From a virus: DNA of 64,000 bases. The first letter of the stretch is position 1; every line of letters starts with the position of its first letter. The notes under the pieces are model-generated. The model was given only the letters and a program-made list of their open reading frames with translations, did not search any database and was not told where the DNA came from. Below, piece by piece: positions 19,186 through 37,268 of this stretch. Where the stretch lies: positions 1 to 64,000 of IMG/VR virus record IMGVR_UViG_3300013132_000031. One strand, given 5' to 3'. Both the position numbers and the translations under genes were made by a program.

Positions 19186-19638
19186 TCAAACCGTTATATC
19201 TTCCATGCCTGCTGTGCGCAGTCGAACCACGTGACCCATTTGCCACTGCTTGGTATCCAGGCCCTTCATGATACCCAGCCAACGATTGCGTAACAGTGCC
19301 ACTTCGTTGATGATGGTTTCAAAGTCCACAACTTCTTCTTCACCGTCCACATACTTTTCAGCATCACGTGCTGTCAAGGCACGAGCATAACCTTCCAGAT
19401 ACTTCTTGAAATGTCGGGTACGTATCTTTCTCAGTTGAATGTTGAGGTAGTTCAACACAGCTTCAATCTCTTGTAGCTGGTTGAACCTGTGCTCAGTTAT
19501 GCCTGGTAAGGCTGTGATGTTTTTTTCTACCAGGCCGCCAATTCGGCAGTCACGTTTGGCATCCGTGATTTCTGACTCAAAATGTGCAATGAAGTCAGGT
19601 ATGTTGCCAAGGTCTGCTACAACTTTGCTATACCACAT
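19186..19638 (-). CDS. uvsY: Recombination mediator UvsY
   Basis: 150 residues, near T4 UvsY (137). Recognised by the cyanophage-type pattern ARALTARDAEKYVDGEEEVVDF followed by NEVALLRNRWLGIMKGLDTKQWQMGHVVRLRTAGMED at residues 84-146. UvsY helps UvsX replace gp32 on single-stranded DNA during strand invasion. Here it is separated from uvsX by a radical SAM gene and an acidic small gene. It overlaps the radical SAM gene by 11 bases. Confidence 0.8.
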   Translation of the reverse strand: MWYSKVVADLGNIPDFIAHFESEITDAKRDCRIGGLVEKNITALPGITEHRFNQLQEIEAVLNYLNIQLRKIRTRHFKKYLEGYARALTARDAEKYVDGEEEVVDFETIINEVALLRNRWLGIMKGLDTKQWQMGHVVRLRTAGMEDITV

Positions 19639-20869
19639 ATTTTTTATATTCCGTTAGCCAGGGAAACAACGTCGGCCAATGTGTGCCACGCCTGCGATCT
19701 TTTTCGTCAAGAAAATCCAATAACTTAACTACTTCTTTAACATCTATGGTTGATTTTGTAACTTTAGAAGCTATACTGGCCATGTAATTGTAAGTAGTTT
19801 TATCCTCATCAGACACTTGAGGCATTAAATTTAGGATTTGATCAAAATCATCTTTGAATTGATCGCCGCCCAGTACACCTGGTTCAAAATAACTTGGTCC
19901 CGGTGATGCTATGCTAAAATGTTGATGAACTGGACGTGTGCCGTTCCATTCTTTTATTTTTGCTAGCAACTCAGGCATGGTTTTAATAGTTAGTCCAGTA
20001 ATAGTCTGATTGATACTGAGATACAACCATTTGTTGTTAAGTAGTATTTCAAAGTTTTTTTGCCATTGATGTAGTTGAAGTCCCCAACGCACATATTCTT
20101 GTTGAGGTCCCCAACAATCTATACTGCATGTTACGTCAATTTTTTTTATTTTTTTTGTTAGTATCAATTTTTTAAATCGATCAATAAACATACATAACCT
20201 ATCAGTTCCAACCATGAGATTGGTCACAATATACAATTCACAATCAGGATTGGGATATTGTTCTATCATGTCTAACAATTTTTCAAATTCTTTTTGATAC
20301 AACGGTTCGCCACCTAACGCACCAAACCTTTTGAGTTTTGGAAATCCAGTAACAAACCACTGCCAAAAATAAGGAGTTAGATCTTTGTGATGAGTTTCTA
20401 CTTTTGTAAGCTGTAAATCGCCTTTGATAAACGTACCAAATTTTTGATTTTCGTTGTTGATAACAGAACTCAAATATGGCGAACAATACAAGCAACCTAA
20501 ATTACAAGTGTTGTCAAAAAACACTTCTACTATGGTTGGAGAAACTACCAATGCAGTAGCATCACTGTCCAGTTCGGGTGGCACCTGATTAGGAATGTCA
20601 AGGTGCCTTAGTCTGTCGCTAAACCCACCAGCTTTTTCAAGATTTTTGCAGTAAGAACAACTTTTTTCAGGCCATAATCCTTGTAGCATTCTTCTACGAT
20701 CATCTAACACAACTTCAGTATTATGAAAGTTGTTAAAATTTTCAGGTGTCAATGCAGTTTCGGCAGTGCGATGACAGGTCATTGACACTCCACCATCTAA
20801 ATATAATGTTGTCCAATTCCATTTTAGTTGACATGCAGTAGCAGTCCTAATAGGAAAAAACTTTTGCAT
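19628..20869 (-). CDS. Radical SAM protein
   Basis: 413 residues. The 4Fe-4S site CNLGCLYC is at residues 122-129 and is followed by GALGGEPLYQKEF (GGE motif). Extra cysteines upstream (C32, C71, C74) could bind an auxiliary cluster, as in twitch/SPASM enzymes. Substrate unknown. The gene is A+T rich and sits between uvsY and the uvsX side of the recombination operon, which argues for later insertion. Related enzymes are at 28626, 30292 and 47312. Confidence 0.85.
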   Translation of the reverse strand: MQKFFPIRTATACQLKWNWTTLYLDGGVSMTCHRTAETALTPENFNNFHNTEVVLDDRRRMLQGLWPEKSCSYCKNLEKAGGFSDRLRHLDIPNQVPPELDSDATALVVSPTIVEVFFDNTCNLGCLYCSPYLSSVINNENQKFGTFIKGDLQLTKVETHHKDLTPYFWQWFVTGFPKLKRFGALGGEPLYQKEFEKLLDMIEQYPNPDCELYIVTNLMVGTDRLCMFIDRFKKLILTKKIKKIDVTCSIDCWGPQQEYVRWGLQLHQWQKNFEILLNNKWLYLSINQTITGLTIKTMPELLAKIKEWNGTRPVHQHFSIASPGPSYFEPGVLGGDQFKDDFDQILNLMPQVSDEDKTTYNYMASIASKVTKSTIDVKEVVKLLDFLDEKDRRRGTHWPTLFPWLTEYKKYVV

Positions 20870-21136: not shown

Positions 21137-22192
21137 TTATTCCTCCACAGCGTCGGCTGTACTTACCTCGGCCTTTTGATTGCCAAAATCTGCCATCACA
21201 CGGTCCAAGCACCCGTCTTCATTTGACTCCCAGGCCTTGCGAAACTGCTTGATGATTTCGCCATCGCTGGTGGTAAAAGTCAATCTGTTGCCGTCTTTTT
21301 TCAGCATGCCTTTTTTCTCAGCCAGGTCCACCAGGCCTGAGTAGGGATTCATGCCTGTTTCATAGGGAATTTTGACCTGCACACCTTCAAAGGGTTTGGC
21401 ATAGCGTGTTTTCATGACCTTGCAGGCACTGCGTATGCCCATGACTTCCGACACTTTGTTGCCGTCCTCGTCCTCTTTGAGTTTGAGTTTTTTCATGGCC
21501 ACCACAATCGAACTGGCATAGATAAAGCCTTGCCCACCACTGATCTTGTCATCGGGGTCAAACATGTCCTGGCTGGCATAAGTGTGATTGGTACAAACCA
21601 AGCCCACATTGTAGGAGCCAAACATGTTCACACAGTTACGAACCAAGGCTGTCAGTGCTTTGGGTTTGCGACCCAGATCGCCCTTCATCTCGCCAGCATC
21701 AAACTGGTTCACATCAGTGGGAGTCAACAACATGCCCAGTGAGTCAATCACAAACATGACCTTGGGACGTTCGCCATCGGGCAAGGCCTTGTAGTCGCTC
21801 ATGAATGTACTAATGGTCTTGGCCACGTCGTCAATCATGGCCATGCTCAATTTCAGCAATTTGCTTTCTGATGTATCTACACCCAAGGCCCGGAGCCAAT
21901 CTTCATCCAAGGCATTTTCCGAATCAATCAGCACCACAAAAATGCCTTGCTCTTGTGCGTTCTTGATGATGTTGCCTGAACAGATGTAACTTTTACCTGC
22001 TCCAGACTCACCAGCAAACACAGTGACCTTGCCCAAGGGAATGCCACGATTGAAATCGCCAGAGATCAAATAGTTCAAGGCATAGTTACCTGTAGAGATC
22101 CAGTCTGTGGGATCATTGAAGCCAATTGACAATCCGTCAATGCTTTTTGTTATTTCTTTACGGAATTTGGAAACGTCGAAAGGTTTTCCCAT
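21137..22192 (-). CDS. uvsX: RecA-like recombinase UvsX
   Basis: 351 residues (T4 UvsX is 391). Walker A GESGAGKS at 61-68; Walker B VMFVIDSLGML near 145-155; a Lys-rich loop and ACKVMKTRYAKPFEG follow. UvsX forms the presynaptic filament on single-stranded DNA and drives recombination-dependent replication. It lies directly downstream of gp32 with a strong RNA hairpin between them, and upstream of the acidic small gene, the radical SAM gene and uvsY. Confidence 0.95.
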   Translation of the reverse strand: MGKPFDVSKFRKEITKSIDGLSIGFNDPTDWISTGNYALNYLISGDFNRGIPLGKVTVFAGESGAGKSYICSGNIIKNAQEQGIFVVLIDSENALDEDWLRALGVDTSESKLLKLSMAMIDDVAKTISTFMSDYKALPDGERPKVMFVIDSLGMLLTPTDVNQFDAGEMKGDLGRKPKALTALVRNCVNMFGSYNVGLVCTNHTYASQDMFDPDDKISGGQGFIYASSIVVAMKKLKLKEDEDGNKVSEVMGIRSACKVMKTRYAKPFEGVQVKIPYETGMNPYSGLVDLAEKKGMLKKDGNRLTFTTSDGEIIKQFRKAWESNEDGCLDRVMADFGNQKAEVSTADAVEE

Positions 22193-23386: not shown

Positions 23387-26293
23387 TCATTTGATCAAAG
23401 CCAGTGATTTTATTCTTGCCAAAAGTGCATCGCCGTCTTTGGATTCATAGTATGCGCCAGTCATTGCACTGTTTGAGTTTATGGGGTCGTCGTTGCCTTC
23501 CGCCACATCTTGCTCTGGTAATACACCTTTGGGACCTGCCATGGGTTTTGTTTGAATTCGCTTCTTAATCTGACTTTGTTTTGTTTTAGTCCAAGAATCA
23601 TCTGGTGTGCCAAAAATATCATCTAACTCGGTTTCTGCACGGCGAAGTCTTTCCATGTCTTTGTTGGACCATTGACGATCTTTTGCACTACCTTCCGCCA
23701 TGCCTTGCTGTTTGGCCGTCTTAAACGTGCCAACACCAGTATTCATATTGTATTGACCTATCAGTTTATCGCCTATCATGGCAACACTTTTTACATGTCT
23801 GCCATCTTCGGTGCGTTTCTTGATGATCCTGACCTGAGCCGGGTGATAGGCATCTTTGACATTATCTACCCATTCACTGTGTTCGACACCTTGAGTGACT
23901 TCGTTCAAGGAACCTTCCGCCACACCTTCGTCTATTTCGGGTTCATAATACCAGCCCATTCCAGGATCATTGTCGCCGTTCTTTGCAGGGTTATCAAATT
24001 TGAAATAACCAATCTGAATCAGACCGTTAGGAGCATCTTGATCAAACCAATATCCTTTGAATACACCTGTCTTTTCATCAAAGTCTTCTCGGTCAAACCA
24101 ATTGGCTTCAAACTGCGAAAAGTAATCTATGCTACGACGATAATGTTCTGGCTTGGGATATTTGTAAAAAGAATCATCATCTGGGCCGTCATTGCCGCCC
24201 CAAGGATCGCGACCTCGTCCACCTGGCCCGCGAGGTGTGTTGCCGCCGCCGCCAGCAGGAGCAAATTCATTCAATTTGCCTTCGCCCATGCTGTAGGGCA
24301 TGCCCACTGCACCACCATCTTCATACATGCTGCCACATTCTGCCAATCCGTGTTCTGGGCAGTATTGACCTTCCATGGTCATGTTGCAAGAGCCTTCGCT
24401 CACAGGCATGATCTGTGGTGCAATTAGGTTTTCATCTAGGCCAATGTCTTGAGCAAAACGGTCTGCTACCCATTCATAGGGATCACCGGTTCGGGCTTTC
24501 TTTGTGCCATAGGGCATGTCATCAAAGTAGTAGTCATATAGTGCATCGTACAAATCGTTGTCCATGTCGCCAGATTGCATGAATTTTCTCACTTCGGGAC
24601 CAAAGCGGTCCTGGATGTGGTCCAAGGTGTTGCCTGTGGAATCTGTGAGCACACCTTCGCTTACTGGCACGCCGGCGTGACGCAGCATGCGAGTCAAATC
24701 TGCTTCTACGAATGTGGCTGTGTTGTCGCCTTCCGCCACACCTTGCTGATTTATTCTTTTGAATACTAAACTGGCTACACGATTATAAATTGTTTCTGGA
24801 ATATTATTCTTGACAAAATAACGATCTAACGCACGATATACGGTACTGTCATAAGCCATACCACGTAATCTTTCTAGATTTTTTCCAGTTGTTAACTTGT
24901 CAGCAATCTCCATGGCCTGTGATGAGTCATCAGTGTTCGCCACAGTTCCTGGTGAAGTAGTATCTCGTGATTTGCTAGGGAACTTCAAATTAACGCCTTC
25001 CGCCACACCTTGCTCTTTTATTTCAGGTGCAGTGTCTTGGTCAACATCAGCAGGTTCTGATCGAGTGCTTTCGGGAGTTTGAATGCCCAGTTCGGCCAGT
25101 CTGCGTTGCACATCTGAATCCGCCCAGATGTTGGCTCTTGGATCATTGTCAGCCAAGTCGTTTAGGATGTCAAACAGCTCGTCATCGCCAACCAAATCAT
25201 ACAACTGTTCAGTGGCATTCATGGCGTCGGCGCCTACAATGAGTTCGCCGGTCATGAGCTGTTGTAGTTTTTCATAAGCTTCGGGAGTGTCGGGCAAGGC
25301 CCAAGTGCCTTCGCTCAAACGGTTCATGTAATTTTCAAATATTTCGGCTTCTTTCATTTTGGTTCCTTGCTGTTGTATCTTGGCTAAAGTTGGCAATGCT
25401 GCTTCAATTCTAGTGTCCAATGTTTGTTGCACAAACATGTTTTTTAAATCTTCAACCAGACTCTCTTGTTGATCAATTTGATCTGGTGCCCACGACTCAA
25501 AGTAGGTGTGATATCCACGTGACGAAGACAGTCGTTTTAGATTTTCTTGAAGGCTGCGATAGTAATGTGCAGCCGATTCTACCAGTTCTTGTGTGATGCC
25601 TTCATACACATGATGTTGCTTGGCACGATTGAATCTTGACAGCACTGACAGCTCTTGAACCATTTCGTTGATATGGTTGCCGCGCACATCATAGGGGCGG
25701 CCACCTTGTCGCACATGTTCCAACATGGCACGACCGTGTATGAGACGATTGCTCTGCAGTTTGAATCGTTCTCCGTCAGCAGTTTCAATAAAAATGCTTT
25801 CAATGTAGCGATAGCGTTTGTCATCTTCGCCAATTATTTTGTTGTGTTTGATCAGTATTCTGGCCTCTGTGGGCTCGCCTATAAAGCTCTCACGGCGGCT
25901 GCCATAGTAGCCTTCAAACAGGCCTTCTTTTACAGCAGCCTGCCCAGCCAATGAGTGTTTGAGTCTGCTGAGATTTTGAGGGCTAAAGGTGTATCTGTGT
26001 GTTTGAGCCAACTTGCGCATTTGATTCAAAAACGCAAACCATTCGTCTTTGTCTTGGTCTTGCATGCTGCGACCAAGATTGTCTCCAAAAAACAACAGCA
26101 GCTCGTTGTCATCGCCTATCACTGCCACAGCAGATCCATAGTTGTTGCCGCTGGTGCTGCGATAGTCAAAACTTATGATATTGGCATCAGCAGGACCACT
26201 GCTTTGGCCACCTTCGTCCCGATATTCAGGATCAAAGTTGTTTGTGACCAGCAGGTCCGCCAGTTCTTGGGAGATTGAATTTTCTTGGGCCAT
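23387..26293 (-). CDS. Large modular protein with repeated VAEG linkers (candidate capsid-internal polyprotein)
   Basis: 968 residues from the ATG near 26293 (MAQENSISQELADLL), 11 bases after the terminase stop. An N-terminal domain of about 330 residues (ISFDYRSTSGNNYGSAV, ELLLFFGDNLGRSM, IFIETADGERFKL) is followed by several short modules, one with a Gly/Pro/Arg linker. Modules are joined by near-identical hexapeptides G-V-A-E-G, G-M-A-E-G or D-V-A-E-G at about residues 427, 516, 788, 862 and 927, plus looser S-E-G sites. V-x-E|G resembles T4 prohead protease sites (hydrophobic-x-Glu, cut after Glu). Function unknown; packaging inside the capsid and processing is the hypothesis. Confidence 0.75.
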   Translation of the reverse strand: MAQENSISQELADLLVTNNFDPEYRDEGGQSSGPADANIISFDYRSTSGNNYGSAVAVIGDDNELLLFFGDNLGRSMQDQDKDEWFAFLNQMRKLAQTHRYTFSPQNLSRLKHSLAGQAAVKEGLFEGYYGSRRESFIGEPTEARILIKHNKIIGEDDKRYRYIESIFIETADGERFKLQSNRLIHGRAMLEHVRQGGRPYDVRGNHINEMVQELSVLSRFNRAKQHHVYEGITQELVESAAHYYRSLQENLKRLSSSRGYHTYFESWAPDQIDQQESLVEDLKNMFVQQTLDTRIEAALPTLAKIQQQGTKMKEAEIFENYMNRLSEGTWALPDTPEAYEKLQQLMTGELIVGADAMNATEQLYDLVGDDELFDILNDLADNDPRANIWADSDVQRRLAELGIQTPESTRSEPADVDQDTAPEIKEQGVAEGVNLKFPSKSRDTTSPGTVANTDDSSQAMEIADKLTTGKNLERLRGMAYDSTVYRALDRYFVKNNIPETIYNRVASLVFKRINQQGVAEGDNTATFVEADLTRMLRHAGVPVSEGVLTDSTGNTLDHIQDRFGPEVRKFMQSGDMDNDLYDALYDYYFDDMPYGTKKARTGDPYEWVADRFAQDIGLDENLIAPQIMPVSEGSCNMTMEGQYCPEHGLAECGSMYEDGGAVGMPYSMGEGKLNEFAPAGGGGNTPRGPGGRGRDPWGGNDGPDDDSFYKYPKPEHYRRSIDYFSQFEANWFDREDFDEKTGVFKGYWFDQDAPNGLIQIGYFKFDNPAKNGDNDPGMGWYYEPEIDEGVAEGSLNEVTQGVEHSEWVDNVKDAYHPAQVRIIKKRTEDGRHVKSVAMIGDKLIGQYNMNTGVGTFKTAKQQGMAEGSAKDRQWSNKDMERLRRAETELDDIFGTPDDSWTKTKQSQIKKRIQTKPMAGPKGVLPEQDVAEGNDDPINSNSAMTGAYYESKDGDALLARIKSLALIK
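23495..25015 (-). repeat. Five copies of a ~21-base in-frame repeat encoding QGVAEG
   Basis: Copies on the + strand: 23495-23515, 23691-23710, 23913-23930, 24728-24748 and 24995-25015, all variants of GCCTTCCGCCACACCTTGCT. Three share at least 19 of 20 bases although the flanking modules are unrelated, so DNA identity exceeds what protein constraint alone requires. Confidence 0.85.
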
Positions 26294-26303
26294 AGTGCAA
26301 TAT

Positions 26304-27890
26304 TTACCTAAGTATAGAAATGAACGGCATTGGATCAATGTGATTGTCTGTGTGATCTTTGAGATGTGTGTCCAGTTCTGCATGATAAGTCTGCAGCAAC
26401 ATCAGCATGCGGACCGCCAACAACGAGCTCATCACCAAATCGTCTGTTTCTCCAGGTTTGGCAGCATAACTGCCGCCGTTGGCCACAAACGTTTTGAGTT
26501 CACTGATCAAGGGTCTGCTGTACAGCTTCATGCGTCCAGATTCTACTAAGATTTTTAACTTGCTGCAGGCAGTGAGTTTGGCTTTGTTTGTGGTGTTGAA
26601 TCCTTTACGAAATCTACGTCCTGTAGTGCCTGTTACTGAATTGTCGCTGAGAAAATACCCTCGGATGTTTTCTTCTCCGTACTCGTTTATGCTGATCAGG
26701 GCGGCTTCGCCAATGGTATTGTTTTCTACTGAGTAGTATATCTTTTTGTCATCTTTGGTAATTTCATACAATTCATTCACAATATCAGCCAACAGTTTGA
26801 CCTGTGTAGGAATATCTGTTCGGTTGTGGCGCCATTCAGCCACTTGCTCTGTGGTGTCTGCTTCGAACACTTGTATGGCTGCAGGGTCGCCGCCGGTGCC
26901 CAGGCTAGGGTCTAGAGCTACAATATACATTTTGTCTGGGTTTGGTGTTTTGTACCAGCGCACTTGTCCTGTGCGGCGATTGGGTTCTACCCCTTCCAAG
27001 TCCAGCAGTCGGGTGGGAGCAATTAGTGTTTCATCATTGATAACAAATTCACATTCCATTTCTCGACGGAATCGATCTTCGCCCAGTTGTGCCAGCTGTT
27101 CCAGTCCCCATTGTTCATCACGATCTGGGTGCTCGCGCCAGTTGCTTCTAAATGCGCGGAATCCATTGATACCTAACTTTGTGGTGTTGCCATGTTCGTC
27201 TTGAGTCTTGTTAGCACCTTTCCACAAATACGCAAATTGATCTTCGTCTGAGTTGGGGGTACTTGTAATAATAGCCTTACCACCTGTGGCCAAAGTAGGG
27301 CTGATAGAAGTCCAAAATTCTCGAGCAATTGTGGGCCTTACAAACGCAAACTCGTCAGCGTACAGGAGTGAAATACTCATACCCCGTCCAGTCGTTTCAG
27401 TCGTGGTCTGCGCCACAATACGAGATCCGTTTTCAAACTCTAGACTGTTTTTGTTGTAGCTGGTGGCACCAGCACGTATGTGATTGGGGCACAATTCATA
27501 GGCATAGCGGATACGTTGCATGATCTCCTGTGCGCCGGTGTATTTGTGTGCGGCTACTAGAATAGTTGAATCTGGTACAAACATTGCATACCACAACAGG
27601 TAGCCAGCAGCTGAGGTTGACTTGCCTGTTTGTCGAGGCATCAGACTGATACTGTATCTGTAGTTGTGATAGGTTTCAATCAGTCGAGTTTGATACTCAA
27701 ATGGATGATACAACATCTTGCCGCGTGTGGGATGCTGAATATTAAAGAAGTTGTCCATAAAGTACAATGGACCATTCACAGGATCTGCACAGGCAGCAAA
27801 CTCCAGGAGTTCTTGTTCGGTGTATATTTCTTTCCGGTGCGGTGCTTTGACCAACACTGTTTCTAAATTTTTATATGGCGGCAAAATCAT
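26304..27890 (-). CDS. 17: Terminase large subunit gp17
   Basis: 528 residues (T4 gp17 is 610). ATPase: Walker A MPRQTGKS (84-91), Walker B LLYADE (175-180), coupling motif TSTPNS. C-terminal nuclease domain begins near VALDPSLGTGGDPAAIQVFE, with the RNase H-type metal Asp, and ends in a conserved helical region. It powers DNA packaging through the portal and cuts concatemers. The small subunit gp16 lies 9.4 kb away at 37289, with a large insert of modification and internal-protein genes in between; in T4 they are adjacent. Confidence 0.95.
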   Translation of the reverse strand: MILPPYKNLETVLVKAPHRKEIYTEQELLEFAACADPVNGPLYFMDNFFNIQHPTRGKMLYHPFEYQTRLIETYHNYRYSISLMPRQTGKSTSAAGYLLWYAMFVPDSTILVAAHKYTGAQEIMQRIRYAYELCPNHIRAGATSYNKNSLEFENGSRIVAQTTTETTGRGMSISLLYADEFAFVRPTIAREFWTSISPTLATGGKAIITSTPNSDEDQFAYLWKGANKTQDEHGNTTKLGINGFRAFRSNWREHPDRDEQWGLEQLAQLGEDRFRREMECEFVINDETLIAPTRLLDLEGVEPNRRTGQVRWYKTPNPDKMYIVALDPSLGTGGDPAAIQVFEADTTEQVAEWRHNRTDIPTQVKLLADIVNELYEITKDDKKIYYSVENNTIGEAALISINEYGEENIRGYFLSDNSVTGTTGRRFRKGFNTTNKAKLTACSKLKILVESGRMKLYSRPLISELKTFVANGGSYAAKPGETDDLVMSSLLAVRMLMLLQTYHAELDTHLKDHTDNHIDPMPFISILR

Positions 27891-28629
27891 TTAATATTCT
27901 TTCTGCAAACAGTTCATGCCCAAGTGGGCCAGCATGCATGCGATCTCTAGCATACTCCACTTCTTCGCGACTTTTGGCAAACCAGTCGTGTGCATTGTAA
28001 GTTAAACAGCGTATGCCTAATCGAGCGCACAGGCCTTCCACTGCCAGTCGATTACGTGCGTTATTTAAGTCTGCATTGCGGTCATTCAAGAACCAAGTTT
28101 TTATAAAATTGTCAGTGTCTGCTTGACCAATTTCGCTGCCTGGCAAGTAAGTGTCGTGATTGTGATTGACGTTTTCTGATATCAGATCAAATCTGTGTTT
28201 GGGCGGTGCTGCCATTACCACCAACTTTGGGCGTAGTACAGGCAACCAATAGTCTGCCAGCATGAAACAGGTATCTGCACTGGTTCCGCCCCAAGCCAGA
28301 TTGTAATTTTTCAAACCCAAGGCCTGTGCGACCAAATGACTCCATGTGGACTGTTCTGGCAGACCAATGCCAATGGTATAGCTGCAACCCAATGATATCA
28401 TACTGTTGGTTTGCGGATCAAACTCTTCTGATCTGAATCCCTCACTGTTTATACGGTATGTTATGGCATCAGGCTCAAGCCATCCTTTGGCGCGAAAATA
28501 CTCACGGTATTCTTCGTTTTGTACCAGCTGCTGAAAACTTTCTGCTGTGTCAGTTGGCAACCATTTCAAAGTCTGGTGGCGATATTTTGACATCATACCA
28601 AAATGCCAAGGAGGCTGATTATTGGTCAT
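27871..28629 (-). CDS. SGNH hydrolase-like protein
   Basis: 252 residues from ATG 28629 (MTNNQPPWHFGMM), since this overlaps the radical SAM stop by 4 bases as is usual here. ISLGCSYTIGIGLPEQSTW is block I with the Ser nucleophile in G-x-S, NLAWGGTSADTCF is block III-like (G-G-x-S), VVMAAPPKHRF block II-like, and the C-terminal ARDRMHAGPLGHELFAERI supplies D-x-x-H of block V. Likely an esterase or deacetylase acting on glycans. It overlaps terminase by 20 bases. Confidence 0.72.
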   Translation of the reverse strand: MTNNQPPWHFGMMSKYRHQTLKWLPTDTAESFQQLVQNEEYREYFRAKGWLEPDAITYRINSEGFRSEEFDPQTNSMISLGCSYTIGIGLPEQSTWSHLVAQALGLKNYNLAWGGTSADTCFMLADYWLPVLRPKLVVMAAPPKHRFDLISENVNHNHDTYLPGSEIGQADTDNFIKTWFLNDRNADLNNARNRLAVEGLCARLGIRCLTYNAHDWFAKSREEVEYARDRMHAGPLGHELFAERILNDFAAI

Positions 28630-29780
28630 TGTAATCCTTTTCCTATGTTGGGCCACAAGTCCACAAACCTTGTGGTTTTTTTCAATGTTGTTTCCATGTC
28701 CTGGTGCCAGGTCAAAATATCTGGCACAAAATCTTGATTGTTTAGATAACTGTTGTTTACCAAAGTTACACGATATCTTTCAAGCACATCAGTGCTCAAC
28801 TGTTTTTGATCTTGATATTTGGCCACCACACTATCAATTTCTGCTATGGCAAGTTGTCTCAGTCTAGTAGACTGCCTTCTGATATCCAAGTCCCAGGGGT
28901 TGGTCAACTCACACCAAAAAATATCTAACTGTTGCTCAGCACAAAAGTCATAATACTCCATCAGATCCAATGCACAGTAAACAGAATAAGCAGGATGTGC
29001 TTGAACTTTTTGTTGATCGCTCTTCATTACTTGTATGTTATCAACAAACTGTGTCCAACTGGCACCGTGCCGCACATATTCAAATTTGTCCTGGTCAGCA
29101 TTGTCAAAGCTGATCATCCAACTCACGTTGGGCCAAGTTTTTAGACGTTGATAGATGGCATTGTTGTTGAGATCCATGCTGAGGTTGCTTGTGACCATCA
29201 CGCTGACTTTGCTGGCATCAATGTAGTCTAAAAACTTCTCTAGTCCCCGTTGCAACAGCGGCTCACCTCCGCCCAGGCTGAGTCCTTGTATGTTGTGTCC
29301 TTGAGTGCGAGCCAGTTCAATTAGATCAGCATGTTCGTTTTTGACATGATTGATGGGAATCTTCTTTATGCTTTGCCACGCTGTGCTGGTTTCTGGATTG
29401 CAGTACACACAAGCAAGATTGCACAAGTTGCTCCAGTTGACCACTAGGTGTTCCAGTTTGAAAAAGTCTGGATCTGTGTTAATAGCAGCTAGGGTTTCTT
29501 TACTAGTAGTGCGTACAGTTCTACCACTGACTCCTGTGGTTTCTTCCAGACGTTTACACCATGAGCACCCTGGTGCCCACTCACCACGTGCCATGGCCTG
29601 TTTCATGCCTGTGACTATGGGCCCTGTGATAACTTCTTGTATGGTGTTTTGCTTGATGTTGCCAATCATGTCCACGCAATGAAAGCAAGGACTTACTTCC
29701 CCAGCTTGATCAATGTTGAGGCTGGTCCAAGGTGCAGGACAGAACGTGGGACTATCGGATATCATTGTGGTGTCATCCAT
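28626..29780 (-). CDS. Radical SAM protein (twitch/SPASM-like)
   Basis: 384 residues. The canonical CxxxCxxC is at C120, C124, C127 (CNLACVYC), followed by SLGGGEPLLQRGLEK. An N-terminal Cys-rich module (FCPAPWTSLNID, PCFHC at 32-35, CSWC at 72-75) precedes the radical SAM core, as in the paralog at 30292; it may bind a second cluster. The enzyme would generate a 5'-deoxyadenosyl radical, but its substrate is unknown. It forms a block with the 2OG-oxygenase-like gene and the second radical SAM gene. Confidence 0.87.
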   Translation of the reverse strand: MDDTTMISDSPTFCPAPWTSLNIDQAGEVSPCFHCVDMIGNIKQNTIQEVITGPIVTGMKQAMARGEWAPGCSWCKRLEETTGVSGRTVRTTSKETLAAINTDPDFFKLEHLVVNWSNLCNLACVYCNPETSTAWQSIKKIPINHVKNEHADLIELARTQGHNIQGLSLGGGEPLLQRGLEKFLDYIDASKVSVMVTSNLSMDLNNNAIYQRLKTWPNVSWMISFDNADQDKFEYVRHGASWTQFVDNIQVMKSDQQKVQAHPAYSVYCALDLMEYYDFCAEQQLDIFWCELTNPWDLDIRRQSTRLRQLAIAEIDSVVAKYQDQKQLSTDVLERYRVTLVNNSYLNNQDFVPDILTWHQDMETTLKKTTRFVDLWPNIGKGLQ

Positions 29781-30319
29781 GTGTATGAAGTCACTCTATA
29801 AGAGTCTACGGGTGTGAGCATGGCATGCCACAACAGCGGTCTATAACCCGTTGCATCTGCTTGATTGATCATGATGTAACCAGCGTTGGGTTGCGAAGGT
29901 GTTTGATACCGCAAGGTTGAGGGATTCTTGTGCCAGTAAAAAGCTGTGCCCGGGCCGCGCCAGGTCAAGTGCATGCTGCCTGGCATTTCTCCATCAGTAT
30001 GCATGCCGCAGGTAAATCCTGGTTCGTCCACCCACCATGCTGTTCCAAAATAAGGTTGTAATTGTCTGCCAATTGTTGATTCAATTGTTGACCATTGCTG
30101 GCCAAGTTCACGGTGCCACTGGTCAATCCATGGTATGGCTGTGTCAGTTATACGTCTACGCGACCAGTTCTCTTGTCCTTCCTGACGTTGCCAAGGCAAT
30201 GCTAACCAGTCTGTTGTCACAACCAATTCTGCCAGGTCAGCACTTACAGCATGCTCTACCCTAAACAAATTGTTTTCCGCATCCACAGGGGTCACAAGCA
30301 CAATTGTATCTCCGGCCAT
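29762..30319 (-). CDS. 2-oxoglutarate/Fe(II) oxygenase-like protein
   Basis: 185 residues. GMHTDGE supplies H107-x-D109, LLWHAML gives H165 and SYRVTSY R175: the 2-His-1-carboxylate triad and the 2OG-binding Arg in the order and spacing of prolyl-4-hydroxylase-type oxygenases. Substrate unknown. It overlaps the two radical SAM genes on either side (19 and 28 bases), so the three are co-translated and may act on the same substrate. Confidence 0.65.
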   Translation of the reverse strand: MAGDTIVLVTPVDAENNLFRVEHAVSADLAELVVTTDWLALPWQRQEGQENWSRRRITDTAIPWIDQWHRELGQQWSTIESTIGRQLQPYFGTAWWVDEPGFTCGMHTDGEMPGSMHLTWRGPGTAFYWHKNPSTLRYQTPSQPNAGYIMINQADATGYRPLLWHAMLTPVDSYRVTSYTWMTPQ

Positions 30320-31431
30320 AACTGCTCAAACTGCCCCTGTGTGTCAGGGTGATACTTTGTTTCAATGTCTTGTATGTGTTGTTGAAACTGGCGTGTGATG
30401 CCTGCTTGTTCTTGCGTTATCTCACGATAGTTATCCAATGCCTGATCAAAAAACTGTTGCTCAGCAGGTGTGGCGATTCCTAGTGCATAAAACCGTTCAA
30501 TCTCTGCGGCTGCTAATTTGGCCACAGCAGGTCCGTGCAAGAATGGATCCAAGTATGCAGGCTGAAACAAGTTTTGCCATAGCACTGTGGCACCGGCTGA
30601 TTCCGTAAACTGTCTAAACTCACACAATCTTGTGGCATTATAGATACTGTAAACTGCATGCACACCACCCCACTGTCCTTGTGACTGCATCAAGCCTTGT
30701 ATGATTTTCAAGTTTTCCTGCAACATGGCCCATGAGCCACCATACCGCACATATTCAAAACGATTGCTAATGTTGTCAAAGCTCATTGACCAACCTACAC
30801 GGTTGCGTTCGGAGAGTTTGCGAAATATCCGGTTGCTCTGCAAATCAACATTTAAGTTTGTGATCAGTGTGACAATGGCAGACTCGGGTATCACATCCAG
30901 CAGTCGTTCATTCTCGTGCAGCAACAAGGGTTCGCCGCCCACCAGTGCCACTTCGTGTATGTGGTCATGGTGTTGTTCAATGAAATCACACACTTGTTCA
31001 TAGTAGGGTCTTGAGCCTGACTTAAACGAAACTTGCTTTAGCTGTGCCCACTTGGAACTAGCACTGGGGTCGCAGTAGTTGCAACTGAAATTGCATGTGG
31101 TGTTCCATCGCACATCCACTATCACAGGATAGTGATATCGATCTCCAGCGGCAGCATAATCAAACTCGGAATTGACATTGTTGTGCCAGGCACGTTCTGA
31201 GTCTGCACCAAAACGTTCTGCTCGCACACAGTTAGAGCAATAGTCATGTGCTTGTCCTTGTGAGAGACTGGTGCGTATTTCTGTCATCAACTTGCTGTTG
31301 AGTATTTGTTCAATGCTCTGTGAGTTGAGGTTGCCCAGCATGTTGGGATTGCCAGCACAGCAGGTTTTGACATCACCACGGGGATTGATGTGCAAACCCC
31401 GCCAAGGGGCTGCACAGTAAAAATTGCTCAT
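30292..31431 (-). CDS. Radical SAM protein (twitch/SPASM-like)
   Basis: 379 residues. C113, C117, C120 (CNFSCNYC) bind the 4Fe-4S cluster, with VALVGGEPLLL as the GGE motif. N-terminal module: FYCAAPWRGLHINPRGDVKTCCAG and CSNC (65-68), like the paralog at 28626, with which it also shares FDN...FEYVR-[HY]-G-[GA]-SW. The pair arose by duplication. A TGTAAATA box ends four bases before the ATG. Confidence 0.87.
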   Translation of the reverse strand: MSNFYCAAPWRGLHINPRGDVKTCCAGNPNMLGNLNSQSIEQILNSKLMTEIRTSLSQGQAHDYCSNCVRAERFGADSERAWHNNVNSEFDYAAAGDRYHYPVIVDVRWNTTCNFSCNYCDPSASSKWAQLKQVSFKSGSRPYYEQVCDFIEQHHDHIHEVALVGGEPLLLHENERLLDVIPESAIVTLITNLNVDLQSNRIFRKLSERNRVGWSMSFDNISNRFEYVRYGGSWAMLQENLKIIQGLMQSQGQWGGVHAVYSIYNATRLCEFRQFTESAGATVLWQNLFQPAYLDPFLHGPAVAKLAAAEIERFYALGIATPAEQQFFDQALDNYREITQEQAGITRQFQQHIQDIETKYHPDTQGQFEQLWPEIQLCL

Positions 31432-32526: not shown

Positions 32527-32964
32527 TTATTGGCACCAGGACGTTTTGGCTTCGCCGTAGTATTCTCTGGCATAGCCATTGGCGATCAGCATCTGTCGCA
32601 GACTTTGGCCATTTAGAATGACATCTCCCAGTACACGACCACCGTACTTGTCCCAATCCATGAGAATGATCTGACGCTGGGTGGCCTGTGCAACAGCATT
32701 TTTAGTGAAAGCGGAGGCGGCTTGCCCTCGAGCGTTTTCACTTTCGCATTGAGCTCGATGTCCTTTTTCTGGAGTATCAACGCCAAACACTCGGATTGAG
32801 AGTTCAGGCTTGAGTGGGGCTGGTAGAAAGGGTGCGCGAAAGGCCACTGTGTCACCGTCTATGACTCTGGTGATTTCAGCGTCATAGGTCACACCAGGTC
32901 GTTGTTTGGGTTGTGCTAGAGCCAATGTAGGCACTATGAGTAACAGCAGGAGTAATTTTTTCAT
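32527..32964 (-). CDS. Secreted-type thermonuclease (SNase family)
   Basis: 145 residues from ATG 32964, which gives a clean signal peptide (MKKLLLLLLIVPTLALAQ); the longer upstream frame lacks one. SNase motifs: VIDGDTVAF, SIRVFGVDTPEKG with catalytic Arg and Glu, and DKYGGRVLGDV with the second catalytic Arg. The family degrades DNA and RNA using calcium. A phage protein with a signal peptide would act in the periplasm or outside the cell, perhaps on host or extracellular DNA. The signal could be a type I or lipoprotein-less form, as no lipobox Cys is seen. Confidence 0.85.
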   Translation of the reverse strand: MKKLLLLLLIVPTLALAQPKQRPGVTYDAEITRVIDGDTVAFRAPFLPAPLKPELSIRVFGVDTPEKGHRAQCESENARGQAASAFTKNAVAQATQRQIILMDWDKYGGRVLGDVILNGQSLRQMLIANGYAREYYGEAKTSWCQ

Positions 32965-32968
32965 AATG

Positions 32969-33355
32969 TTATCGAGGATATCCTGCAAAGGCTTTGACAG
33001 GACTGGTGGTGGCCACAAAATCAGGCTCCTCACTGTCTGGAGTTGAGACCGGGCGTTTGCCGCCAGGAGTGTCGGTCATGGTCAAAGCAGCGTCAATGAT
33101 TTTTTCAATGCCCCCATTGAATCCGGCTACCACAGCATGCTCACCAAATGCAGTTTCTGCAGACCATTCGGGCATGTGTGGGTTTACCCCATCCTTGCGA
33201 TATTCACTTCTGGCACGAGCCATGGCCACGCCCATGCGATATGTACGATAAGGATCGCTAGAACCCAACCCTGGCAACGTGTAGGTCCAACGCATGGGCT
33301 CTCGGCTCTCATCTGGCAACTCACGTTGCTCTGTGATAAATTCTTGAGCTCTCAT
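32969..33355 (-). CDS. Small protein with capsid-targeting-like N-terminus
   Basis: 128 residues. It begins MRAQEFITEQ, resembling the T4 internal-protein capsid-targeting peptide (M-K-T-Y-Q-E-F-I-[AT]-E), which prohead protease cuts after Glu. The last 12 residues, TSPVKAFAGYPR, are identical to those of the neighbouring 33352-33723 protein, while the middles differ, with a GVAMARARSEYRKDG helix here. The two genes overlap by 4 bases. Probably a paralogous pair of capsid-internal proteins; function after DNA ejection is unknown. Confidence 0.65.
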   Translation of the reverse strand: MRAQEFITEQRELPDESREPMRWTYTLPGLGSSDPYRTYRMGVAMARARSEYRKDGVNPHMPEWSAETAFGEHAVVAGFNGGIEKIIDAALTMTDTPGGKRPVSTPDSEEPDFVATTSPVKAFAGYPR

Positions 33356-33393
33356 CTGGGATACCCTGCAAAGGCTTTGACAGGGCTGGTGGT
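32976..33393 (-). repeat. Pair of 35-base direct repeats encoding a shared C-terminal tail
   Basis: 32976-33010 and 33359-33393 share 33 of 35 bases (GGATAYCCTGCAAAGG and onward). Each is the 3' end of one of two adjacent small genes and includes their last 11-12 codons. Confidence 0.8.
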
Positions 33394-33723
33394 GTGCACC
33401 GCAGGATGTTCTTGACTGCGCAGGTCACCGTGATTGATATCAACATAAGTGCTGCCAATGGCTTTGTATGCCATGTTTAATTTTTGTTGATCTTGCTTTG
33501 TGTATGCTGCTGCAATATTGTGGCGTCCTGCCCATGACTCGCCATCCAGGTCAGGAACAAATGTGCCGTCAGTTGAGGCCGCTGCCATCATCACACGGTT
33601 GAGTTCGTACACACGGTCAGCAAACTTGTTGTCGCGAAACTTGTTCAAGCCCACCGTGGCCTGATTCTGACGCTTGCTCATTTTGCCCACCGTGTCTTCG
33701 GTCACAAACTCAGTTGCTCTCAT
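33352..33723 (-). CDS. Small protein with capsid-targeting-like N-terminus
   Basis: 123 residues. It begins MRATEFVTED, a second capsid-targeting-like peptide with a V-T-E site, and ends in the same TSPVKAFAGYPR tail as the downstream gene. The middle (QNQATVGLNKFRDNKFADRVYELNRVMMAAA) is helical and basic, as T4 internal proteins are. Translationally coupled to its paralog (4-base overlap). Likely a capsid-internal, ejected protein; inference from the leader peptide. Confidence 0.65.
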   Translation of the reverse strand: MRATEFVTEDTVGKMSKRQNQATVGLNKFRDNKFADRVYELNRVMMAAASTDGTFVPDLDGESWAGRHNIAAAYTKQDQQKLNMAYKAIGSTYVDINHGDLRSQEHPAVHTTSPVKAFAGYPR

Positions 33724-34250: not shown

Positions 34251-36653
34251 TTATCCCTTGTATGTTTTCCATTGGTTGGTGAGAGCAAAAATGCTTTCAC
34301 GAACTTTTTCCATGTCGCCGTCACCGTCTAAATCAGCTTGTTTTTTGCCGGCTGCTTTGGCTTTCAGTACATTGTGTGCAAACTTGTTGCCTTCTTCCAT
34401 GTCGGCTTCGTCAACTTCTTTTTTGGCTTCGCGGATGCCGGCCATTTCACGCATGCGCTGAATGCTTTCTTTCACGCTGTCTTCTTCGTTCATATCATCA
34501 GCAGCGTCTTTCATGCTTTCTTTTTTGTTGCCATCTTTGTCCATGTCCAAGAAGTCAGGCTTGGCTGCTTCTGCCAGTCCAGCCATTTCTATCATTCTAC
34601 GCAAGGCATCTTCGTCTTGTGTGTGAACTGCTGTGTTGGGAATGGTAGTTTGTCCATCACCAGCAACATCTGTCTTGGGCTTGTTAATGCCACCTGCGTA
34701 TTGCAGTGCATCACTGGAAGTTTGAGTGTTGGTAGGATAGTCTGGAGCATTTTCATCCACTGCTTCGGCCATGCCACTGTGCATGTCATGATCATGACCG
34801 CCCACACCAGCTGATTTCAGCATCATGGCCAATTTCAAGGCGTCTTCGTCTGTGGCTGTGACTGTGAGGCTTTTGCCGCCTTCGGTTGAGTTACTCATAT
34901 TGATGCTCATGCTTTCGGCAATCATGGTTTCCAATTCACGATTCATTGAGTCGTAAATGCCTTTGCCAAAACTCATGCCTCCAGATTTGGCTGGTTTGAC
35001 ATCTACTTTGCCTTTGTCTAATGTGGTACTGATTCTACCGGTGCTGGAACTGGTTGAAGTTTTTCCTGGTCCAGTTTGTGTAGTAGTCAATCTACCGTCT
35101 TTAGAGTTCTCATCAACTTCTTTCTTGTCGACCTTGTCTGGCAGGCCTTTGTGCTTGGTCTTGGCAAAGTCTTCAGTGTCTTTTGGCTTCATGGTCCGGG
35201 CAACTTTTTTCAGCTCTTTGCTGGCGCCTTTGATCTTTTCACCTTTTTGCATGGCATGTGCCATGCCCATGAACTTTTGTTGTTGCTTGCTGACAGCTTT
35301 TTCAGCAATGGGTTCTTGATCATTGCCTTGTGCTGCCATGTAATCACGTGCGGTGTCCAGGTAATCCATGGCCTTGTTGATCTTGCTCTGCACCCATTCT
35401 GGCAAGTTGTCGTCAGCGTCAATGATGCTTTGCAGTTCGTTGGCTGCTGATTCAATGGTGTCAATGTCATCAAGAGCCATGTCGCCTTCGCGATCGTATT
35501 CGCCTTTTTCTGCTGGATCGTCTTCACCTTCCCGGGTCATCAACTTGGATTTTCTCTGAAAAACTTTTGCCTTGCTGCTGACATTTTTGGAACCTTCAGG
35601 ACGACCAGCTTTGGTCTGCTTTTGTTTTTTGTTGCCTTCGTCATCGGTTTCAGGATCCACACTGAGACCTTGATCATCTGTACGACGTGTCACAACACGG
35701 CCTGTGGCTGTGTGTTTGATGTCATGCTTGTGACCACGTTCAACTGAACCAACCTTGGGTGCATCTTTTCTTGGTGACTTGTAGTCAAATGCGTTGTCTT
35801 CATCCATCTCAGCGTCACGACCTCGACCGCCACCCAGGGCACTGCGCATGGCTTCGGCAGCCACATCGCCTAGCATTTCGTCAACTTCTTTTTTGGCGCC
35901 GGCAATCTTGTCGGCAAAAGTGATTTTGTCGGCAGGTGGTGCCAGTTTGGCAAATGACTTTTGCTTGGCAGTCATCGGAGCACCGGCTTCAGGCAAGTTG
36001 GGTTCTGCATGGGTGCCACGTGCGGCTTTGATGCTGCCTTTGAGACTGGAGATTTGATCTCTTGATGGCATGCCTTTTCTTGGTCCACGATCTAATATGT
36101 TATTTTTTATTCCTGAGCGACCAATACCTTGTCCTCTTTTTAACGGGTCAGTACTGGGAAATTCGCCTCCACCTATTTTGCGTTTTCTACCAGCATAGTC
36201 ATCGGGTTTTGGATTATAGTAGGCATCATCCATATCAGGACCGTACGTGTAGTCTGGTGGTTCCTGGGTGTACAACTTGTCTTTGTACTTGGGGGCGCGG
36301 TACTTGGCTGCTTCTGTGGTTTTTTGTTCAGGTTTCTTGTCTGTTTCCTTGACGGGTCTGCCTTGCTCAGCAGCCTTGCGCTTATAGGCTGGAATGTTGA
36401 CGGGGTTAGTAGGGTCCAGATCCTTTAAACGATCTTCGATACCTTCATCGTACTTGTCGTATTTTTTTCTAATGGGATCAAGAGCTTTGCCTTCGCGACC
36501 AGCCTTGGCCAATGCTTCCATGCCTTGTTTGCCATACTTTTCATAGCCCTTGGCAGCACGACTCATGTCACGCTCATTTAGTTGTTGATGTGTGACTTCG
36601 GGTGTGGCACGAATGCTGTCTAGTTTTTTATTTAAATCGTAAAAGAAACTCAT
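34251..36653 (-). CDS. 800-residue charged, low-complexity protein (candidate head-core/internal protein)
   Basis: 800 residues, very rich in Lys, Asp, Glu and Ala, mostly disordered or helical, with Gly-rich and Thr/Ser-rich segments (TQTGPGKTSTSSSTGRIS). It contains several hydrophobic-Ala-Glu sites followed by small residues: IAE|S near MIAESMS, MAE|A in SGMAEAVDE, LAE|A in AGLAEAAKP, matching the prohead protease consensus. The C-terminus ends FALTNQWKTYKG. The composition recalls T4 prohead core proteins. No enzymatic motif. It lies between gp16-side genes and the capsid-targeted pair. Confidence 0.6.
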   Translation of the reverse strand: MSFFYDLNKKLDSIRATPEVTHQQLNERDMSRAAKGYEKYGKQGMEALAKAGREGKALDPIRKKYDKYDEGIEDRLKDLDPTNPVNIPAYKRKAAEQGRPVKETDKKPEQKTTEAAKYRAPKYKDKLYTQEPPDYTYGPDMDDAYYNPKPDDYAGRKRKIGGGEFPSTDPLKRGQGIGRSGIKNNILDRGPRKGMPSRDQISSLKGSIKAARGTHAEPNLPEAGAPMTAKQKSFAKLAPPADKITFADKIAGAKKEVDEMLGDVAAEAMRSALGGGRGRDAEMDEDNAFDYKSPRKDAPKVGSVERGHKHDIKHTATGRVVTRRTDDQGLSVDPETDDEGNKKQKQTKAGRPEGSKNVSSKAKVFQRKSKLMTREGEDDPAEKGEYDREGDMALDDIDTIESAANELQSIIDADDNLPEWVQSKINKAMDYLDTARDYMAAQGNDQEPIAEKAVSKQQQKFMGMAHAMQKGEKIKGASKELKKVARTMKPKDTEDFAKTKHKGLPDKVDKKEVDENSKDGRLTTTQTGPGKTSTSSSTGRISTTLDKGKVDVKPAKSGGMSFGKGIYDSMNRELETMIAESMSINMSNSTEGGKSLTVTATDEDALKLAMMLKSAGVGGHDHDMHSGMAEAVDENAPDYPTNTQTSSDALQYAGGINKPKTDVAGDGQTTIPNTAVHTQDEDALRRMIEMAGLAEAAKPDFLDMDKDGNKKESMKDAADDMNEEDSVKESIQRMREMAGIREAKKEVDEADMEEGNKFAHNVLKAKAAGKKQADLDGDGDMEKVRESIFALTNQWKTYKG

Positions 36654-36659
36654 TTTGTA

Positions 36660-37268
36660 TTATCCTCGGGGTTGTGCGCCAGTGCTTGGCTTGGGTGGAC
36701 GTTTGATATTGCTCATTGGACTCTTGTTGCCCGTTGGAATATCATTTGTGGTTCGGGCTGCAGGTGTTCGACCACCAGCCACTGTGAAATCTGTACGGTA
36801 TGCGTTTTTCAACACAGCATGATCGTATGGACCGGTAGCATAGTCTTTCTTCAGGGCTCGCTGTTCAGCATCGAGCGCAGGATAATCAGTGTCAGTCAAC
36901 AGGTCTTTGTTTTCTGCTTCAACCTTGTTGGCCTCGTCAACCAGGCCGTCAACATAATTTTGTGTTTGCATCACAATGTGATTGGGATCAAAGCCCAACA
37001 ATTGTGCCAGTTGTTTAATCTGTGGCTCAATGGCTGGATACTTGAAACTTACATCAAACATGGACACACTGTCATTGGGATTGTTGGGAAAGTCAGTCAG
37101 CACTTTTTGTATGGGTGTGGTTTTTACGTCGCCCATGCTCACTGGATCAAATTGATCCAGTTTTTGTTTGAGATCACGAATCAACTCCGCAGACGGTTTG
37201 CCCAGAAGTTTAATACGATAATCGTAAGTGCGCTCACTTTCGGCTAGGTATTGTGCAAATTTTTTCAT
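36660..37268 (-). CDS. Conserved phage protein with capsid-targeting-like leader
   Basis: 202 residues. MKKFAQYLAES at the N-terminus resembles the T4 capsid-targeting peptide with an L-A-E|S cut site. The first domain (TYDYRIKLLGKPSAELIRDLKQKL...) looks like a small alpha/beta fold; the last 60 residues are Pro/Gly/Lys-rich and disordered. An AATAAATA late-promoter-like box at 37285-37292 and an ACAGGAACC ribosome site precede ATG 37268. Probably a virion-internal protein. Confidence 0.6.
   Translation of the reverse strand: MKKFAQYLAESERTYDYRIKLLGKPSAELIRDLKQKLDQFDPVSMGDVKTTPIQKVLTDFPNNPNDSVSMFDVSFKYPAIEPQIKQLAQLLGFDPNHIVMQTQNYVDGLVDEANKVEAENKDLLTDTDYPALDAEQRALKKDYATGPYDHAVLKNAYRTDFTVAGGRTPAARTTNDIPTGNKSPMSNIKRPPKPSTGAQPRG

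Follow-up and report, generated by a model that had tools for sequence, protein, structure and literature searches.

The internal proteins IPI, IPII, IPIII and Alt of phage T4 carry capsid-targeting sequences that are cut by the prohead protease gp21 (PMC9026906). Polyvalent proteins, described by Iyer and colleagues in 2017, are shuffled multidomain chains thought to be delivered along with the DNA and then freed by proteolytic cleavage (PMC5512222). In the giant phage SPN3US, according to the part of the published account drawn on here (PMC10052503), the prohead protease cuts gp245 several times after Glu within the one protein, and the multiply cut head proteins include abundant ejected proteins; the motif given there is A-X-E, the cuts are reported to remove or fragment propeptides and not to release several mature modules, and a repeated DNA linker is not described in that part.

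The gene described here, a candidate cargo polyprotein of a T4-related phage, resembles the T4 internal proteins (PMC9026906) in its association with a gp21-type protease, hydrophobic-x-Glu sites, short capsid-targeting N-termini, and small, varied putative cargo. However, whereas those proteins are encoded by separate genes and lose an N-terminal propeptide, here many modules are strung together in one chain, and the sites are repeated, near-identical, and appear to serve also as exchange points. As the polyprotein ORF itself lacks a capsid-targeting N-terminus, we do not class it as a T4 internal protein, but only as working like one. With polyvalent proteins it shares the shuffling of several unrelated domains among mobile genomes: 42 of 46 homologous internal module pairs had unrelated neighbours on both sides.

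The DNA analysed (the window) comprises positions 1 to 64,000 of IMG/VR virus record IMGVR_UViG_3300013132_000031; the virus's own contig (G000) is 108 kb long and may be incomplete. The candidate gene, its parts, and its neighbours are listed below, with a slash marking the predicted cut and mismatches counted against the DNA consensus of the linker, AGCAAGGTGTGGCGGAAGGC.

26304..27890, minus strand: large terminase (TerL; PF03237, phrog_36964)
23387..26293, minus strand: candidate cargo polyprotein gene, 968 aa; open frame with ATG at 26293, five linkers, conserved locus
25229..26293, minus strand: conserved N-terminal domain, about 355 aa; phrog_13484 'virion structural protein'; 49-99% identity in relatives
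24995..25012, minus strand: linker 1, QGVAE/G, predicted cut after residue 432; 0 mismatches
24731..24997, minus strand: module 2, 89 aa, mobile; blastp homologues in L187 (76%), L120, L111, and L178
24728..24745, minus strand: linker 2, QGVAE/G, predicted cut after residue 521; 0 mismatches
23915..24730, minus strand: module 3, 272 aa, partly ancestral; AGVPVSEGVLTDSTG..., with a Cys/His CPEHG motif
23912..23929, minus strand: linker 3, EGVAE/G, predicted cut after residue 793; 3 mismatches
23693..23914, minus strand: module 4, 74 aa; counterpart absent from the aligned near relatives L204, L209, and L212
23690..23707, minus strand: linker 4, QGMAE/G, predicted cut after residue 867; 3 mismatches
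23498..23692, minus strand: module 5, 65 aa; relative in L174
23495..23512, minus strand: linker 5, QDVAE/G, predicted cut after residue 932; 1 mismatch
23387..23497, minus strand: C-terminal tail DDPINSNSAMTGAYYE...LARIKSLAL, 37 codons with stop; conserved in L204-L212
22255..23250, minus strand: single-strand DNA-binding protein (SSB; phrog_1192, E 2e-65)
21137..22192, minus strand: RecA/UvsX-like recombinase (PF00154)

The polyprotein gene comes directly after the large terminase gene, and the order TerL, polyprotein, SSB is kept wherever the relatives' contigs reach far enough, mostly with UvsX next. Five linkers of the form [Q/E][G/D][V/M]AE/G split the 968-aa chain into pieces of 432, 89, 272, 74, 65, and 36 residues. 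The original prediction of five [GD][VM]AEG sites in a single chain was confirmed in an ORF open throughout, and a chance origin was ruled out by shuffling its residues, since 20,000 shuffles yielded a mean of 0.0067 such sites and a maximum of two. The looser S-E-G sites mentioned with them are also present (LSEG once, VSEG twice), and no linker was detected in the other ORFs of the 64-kb window. An N-terminal domain had been proposed as well; it is indeed a conserved unit, but the predicted size of 330 residues needs a small correction, as the first linker starts at residue 428 and conservation covers about 355 aa of the 432-aa piece that precedes the predicted cut.

This N-terminal domain is encoded at fifteen loci, further loci having been met through the linker, and the relative of the domain in Pseudomonas phage PA5oct is listed as a structural virion protein on the basis of ESI-MS/MS. 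Its AlphaFold model reached a pLDDT of 69, matched nothing in the PDB at E <= 0.001, and found viral matches that were mostly uncharacterised phage proteins, so that the fold is uninformative on function. Among near relatives, the N-terminal domain and the C-terminal tail are constant and the modules in between vary. For instance, L207 and L209 are 99.7% identical across the first 1,251 nt, and after the matching stretch L209 has one extra module, flanked by PVAE/G and PMAE/G. L207 has VAEG, and L209, L211, and L218 have both VAEG and MAEG following Pro, sites that fall outside our linker search pattern. The end of module 3 (KLNEFAP...YKYPKPEHYRRS) is common to L064, L132, and L150.

The same linker, which the original prediction proposed to seek in related phages, was found widely. 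The 17-mer CARGGTGTGGCGGAAGG occurred in at least 120 stretches of viral contigs, with every copy found reading in frame as QGVAEG within an ORF of at least 100 codons; with later fetches, the set grew to 371 sites in 190 non-redundant ORFs of environmental phage contigs, most of these being incomplete pieces of genomes, at a median spacing of 80 aa. Linker-like sites lay in frame within ORFs of at least 80 aa in 580 of 587 cases. The 20-mer gave 10 single matches in cellular genomes, which we dismissed as chance. Our search of the open-access literature yielded neither 'GVAEG' in phage papers nor an earlier report of a linker-joined phage cargo polyprotein.

We propose, with a probability of roughly 0.77, that the gene encodes a cargo polyprotein of a T4-related phage that is packaged in the prohead and cut by gp21, and whose linkers double as recombination joints for cargo. 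The conserved N-terminal virion domain would bring the chain into the prohead core, presumably providing the way into the head for an ORF that has no targeting N-terminus. A gp21-type protease would then cut past the Glu of each [V/M]-A-E/G linker and release several small proteins, roughly 65-270 residues in length, and at infection some of these would accompany the DNA out of the head. Recombination between linkers would add, delete, duplicate, or swap whole modules. Because every linker comes from the same sequence of about 20 nt in the same frame, each recombined joint would automatically be in frame and cleavable.

The original prediction depended on a prohead protease being encoded in this genome, and G000 carries one: a gp21-family gene (Peptidase_S77, PF03420, E 2.1e-23, 75110-75562; phrog_207, E 1e-55) that sits in a T4-type portal/core/protease/scaffold/major-capsid cluster. 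We compared its expected specificity with variant linkers, defined as sites within three bases of the consensus that match no search pattern (n=235). Of the 232 located in ORFs of at least 80 codons, 230 still have the P1 Glu and 231 a hydrophobic residue at P3; counted over the first two codon positions, changes at the residues Q, G, V, A, E, and G numbered 97, 32, 26, 34, 2, and 119, respectively. This retention indicates that the linker follows the gp21 rule of hydrophobic-x-Glu, and P3 and P1 are, to judge from this pattern, under selection as gp21 determinants. The published gp21 motif is L/I-X-E (PMC9026906), from which Val at P3 of the linker is a mild departure; near the end of the propeptide, the position of which was placed by analogy with T4, [L/I]-x-E was present in 11 of 11 gp23 sequences examined.

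A link to head cargo was also evident in N-termini of the T4 capsid-targeting type, which were carried by 20% of linker ORFs as against 7% of the remaining ORFs, as recognised by a pattern (M-[RK]-x-x-[EDQ]-F-[IV]-x-E and similar) composed after examples had been seen. Among internal Met residues, the pattern was matched at 0 of 1,992 within linker ORFs and at 5 of 7,636 within the remaining ORFs. Some of the targeting N-termini lead straight into a linker (e.g., MRATEFITEQGVAEG). Further, 98 post-linker segments are related to standalone ORFs bearing a capsid-targeting N-terminus, and in eight of these the match begins directly past the linker and the targeting sequence, the best with 87% identity over about 225 residues. 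Within the window, the ORFs relevant to this comparison are:

32969..33355, minus strand: small ORF starting MRAQEFITE, T4-type capsid-targeting N-terminus
33352..33723, minus strand: small ORF starting MRATEFVTE, T4-type capsid-targeting N-terminus
36660..37268, minus strand: ORF starting MKKFAQYLAE, phrog_14802 virion structural protein

Cleavage of the polyprotein at its linkers is well supported by these sequence comparisons, because a gp21 gene is present, diverged linkers keep P3 and P1, targeting N-termini are enriched, and the PA5oct relative is structural. The packaged-and-cut part of the original prediction stands on the same observations, packaging in the prohead being reasonably supported as a reading of them; its last step, ejection of the modules with the DNA, we infer by analogy. 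It is unlikely, in our estimation, that the linkers are plain spacers between the domains of a stable protein that always stays whole, in which the module shuffling alone would be real. Modules do shuffle as domains do, and we found no virion proteomics of any linker phage; however, a mere spacer would not retain P1 Glu and a hydrophobic P3 in all but two and one, respectively, of 232 sites amid drift elsewhere, nor does such a reading sit well with genomes that encode both capsid-targeting N-termini and gp21.

A protease other than gp21 could in principle free the modules, either a host enzyme acting after infection or an embedded peptidase, as embedded metallopeptidase domains are thought to release polyvalent proteins (PMC5512222); we consider this highly unlikely. 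The gp21 gene was not seen in 20 of 30 long contigs, which would favour another enzyme, but a complete T4-type major capsid gene was present in none of those 20, and such contigs are uninformative because their capsid genes too are missing or cut; gp21 was found in all 10 of the long contigs in which the contig end does not truncate the T4-type capsid gene. Linker specificity fits gp21, and no embedded peptidase of the polyvalent type was met: the 968-aa ORF has no Pfam match, and the families obtained for 47 scanned polyproteins (full Pfam list, E <= 0.001; 25 of 44 PHROG families listed) include no peptidase domain. Families that did appear in some of the 47 were GNAT acetyltransferase, T7-like kinase, cytidylyltransferase, and nucleotidase. 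For polyvalent proteins an embedded peptidase is proposed, whereas the cutter proposed here would act in trans, and its target would be a uniform linker whose DNA sequence is conserved as well.

This DNA conservation, and the role of the linkers as breakpoints of module exchange, go beyond the original prediction. About 20 nt are conserved, and in a search that left codons free (52 distinct linker sites) Ala was encoded by GCG at 47 of 52 sites, against a background of 10%, and Val by GTG at 44 of 52, against 24%. The motif is sharp-edged, with information content at background within a few bases outside it, in a set gathered partly by the exact 17-mer but with the edge positions lying outside that pattern. 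Linkers are where homology shared by otherwise unrelated genes begins and breaks off. At the protein level, homology among linker ORFs ended at linkers in both partners for 140 of 1,688 N-side and 107 of 1,491 C-side ends (0.4% expected), and DNA homology did so for 165 of 9,462 ends (about 2e-5 expected), although these counts include related pairs, so that the events are not independent. Base-level views revealed sequences that were unrelated up to a linker, identical from that linker onward, and lost identity right after the next one. In L104 a 67-aa module is duplicated exactly, in tandem and together with its linker; the near relative L061 has it once. Recombination presumably uses the linker as a short homology; alternatively, the DNA conservation could reflect recent spread by ordinary recombination instead of a recombination role. 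We see an even chance that the linker is an evolved double code, its roughly 20 nt being kept both as prohead-protease site and as recombination joint, with a large group of aquatic T4-related phages drawing on a common set of interchangeable head-cargo modules, each able to fit into the polyprotein of any member. We judge it highly unlikely that the linker is instead a piece of mobile or selfish DNA, comparable to the in-frame palindromic elements of Rickettsia, or a DNA signal lying in genes by chance, with the peptide a by-product: its DNA-level conservation, sharp edges, and dispersal across many phages would suit such an element, but it is always in the same frame within long ORFs with nearly no out-of-frame or intergenic copies, its decay tracks the peptide and not the DNA, the moving units are diverse modules and not one element, and the 20-mer has only the 10 single matches in cellular genomes.

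The sets of proteins that phages inject, and how these sets change, are known mainly from a few model phages. With a recognisable linker, cargo modules of uncultured phages could be flagged from sequence alone, and it would become visible how cargo, in which anti-defence factors may be included, moves between phages as a unit. If the proposed cargo polyprotein is real, it offers a clear example of a sequence that is at once a processing site and a recombination joint, and exchange at linkers would let these viruses trade the proteins carried inside their heads. Two cultured cyanophages may provide a system for proteomics. Gp123 of Synechococcus phage Bellamy (L240 4989-6845), whose gene is directly beside the large terminase gene, has module families in common with linker polyproteins, and a multi-module protein of BUCT-ZZ01 (L241 3416-5254) has one short stretch in common with them; both, however, have varied Glu-rich linkers and not the uniform QGVAEG DNA unit.

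Several other ORFs of this virus were noted. An 800-aa ORF (34251-36653, minus strand) contains a DUF3008 module and several hydrophobic-x-Glu sites with no uniform linker, and its start, SRAAKGYEKYGKQGMEALAKAGREG, resembles the module after a QGVAEG linker in L031; this ORF is possibly a second cargo chain. A Pro/Gln/Thr-rich ORF of 213 aa beyond the window (G000:70472-71110) starts MDPRFFRKYIDIINEA, a targeting-like N-terminus. A Staphylococcal-nuclease-like protein with an apparent signal peptide is encoded at 32527-33033 (minus strand). The window also encodes three radical-SAM proteins (19628-20869, 28626-29780, and 30292-31431, all on the minus strand), which are unusual for a phage, with a weakly GDSL-like protein nearby (27871-28656); two of the three have an N-terminal SPASM-like iron-sulfur domain, the first below Pfam's cut-off.
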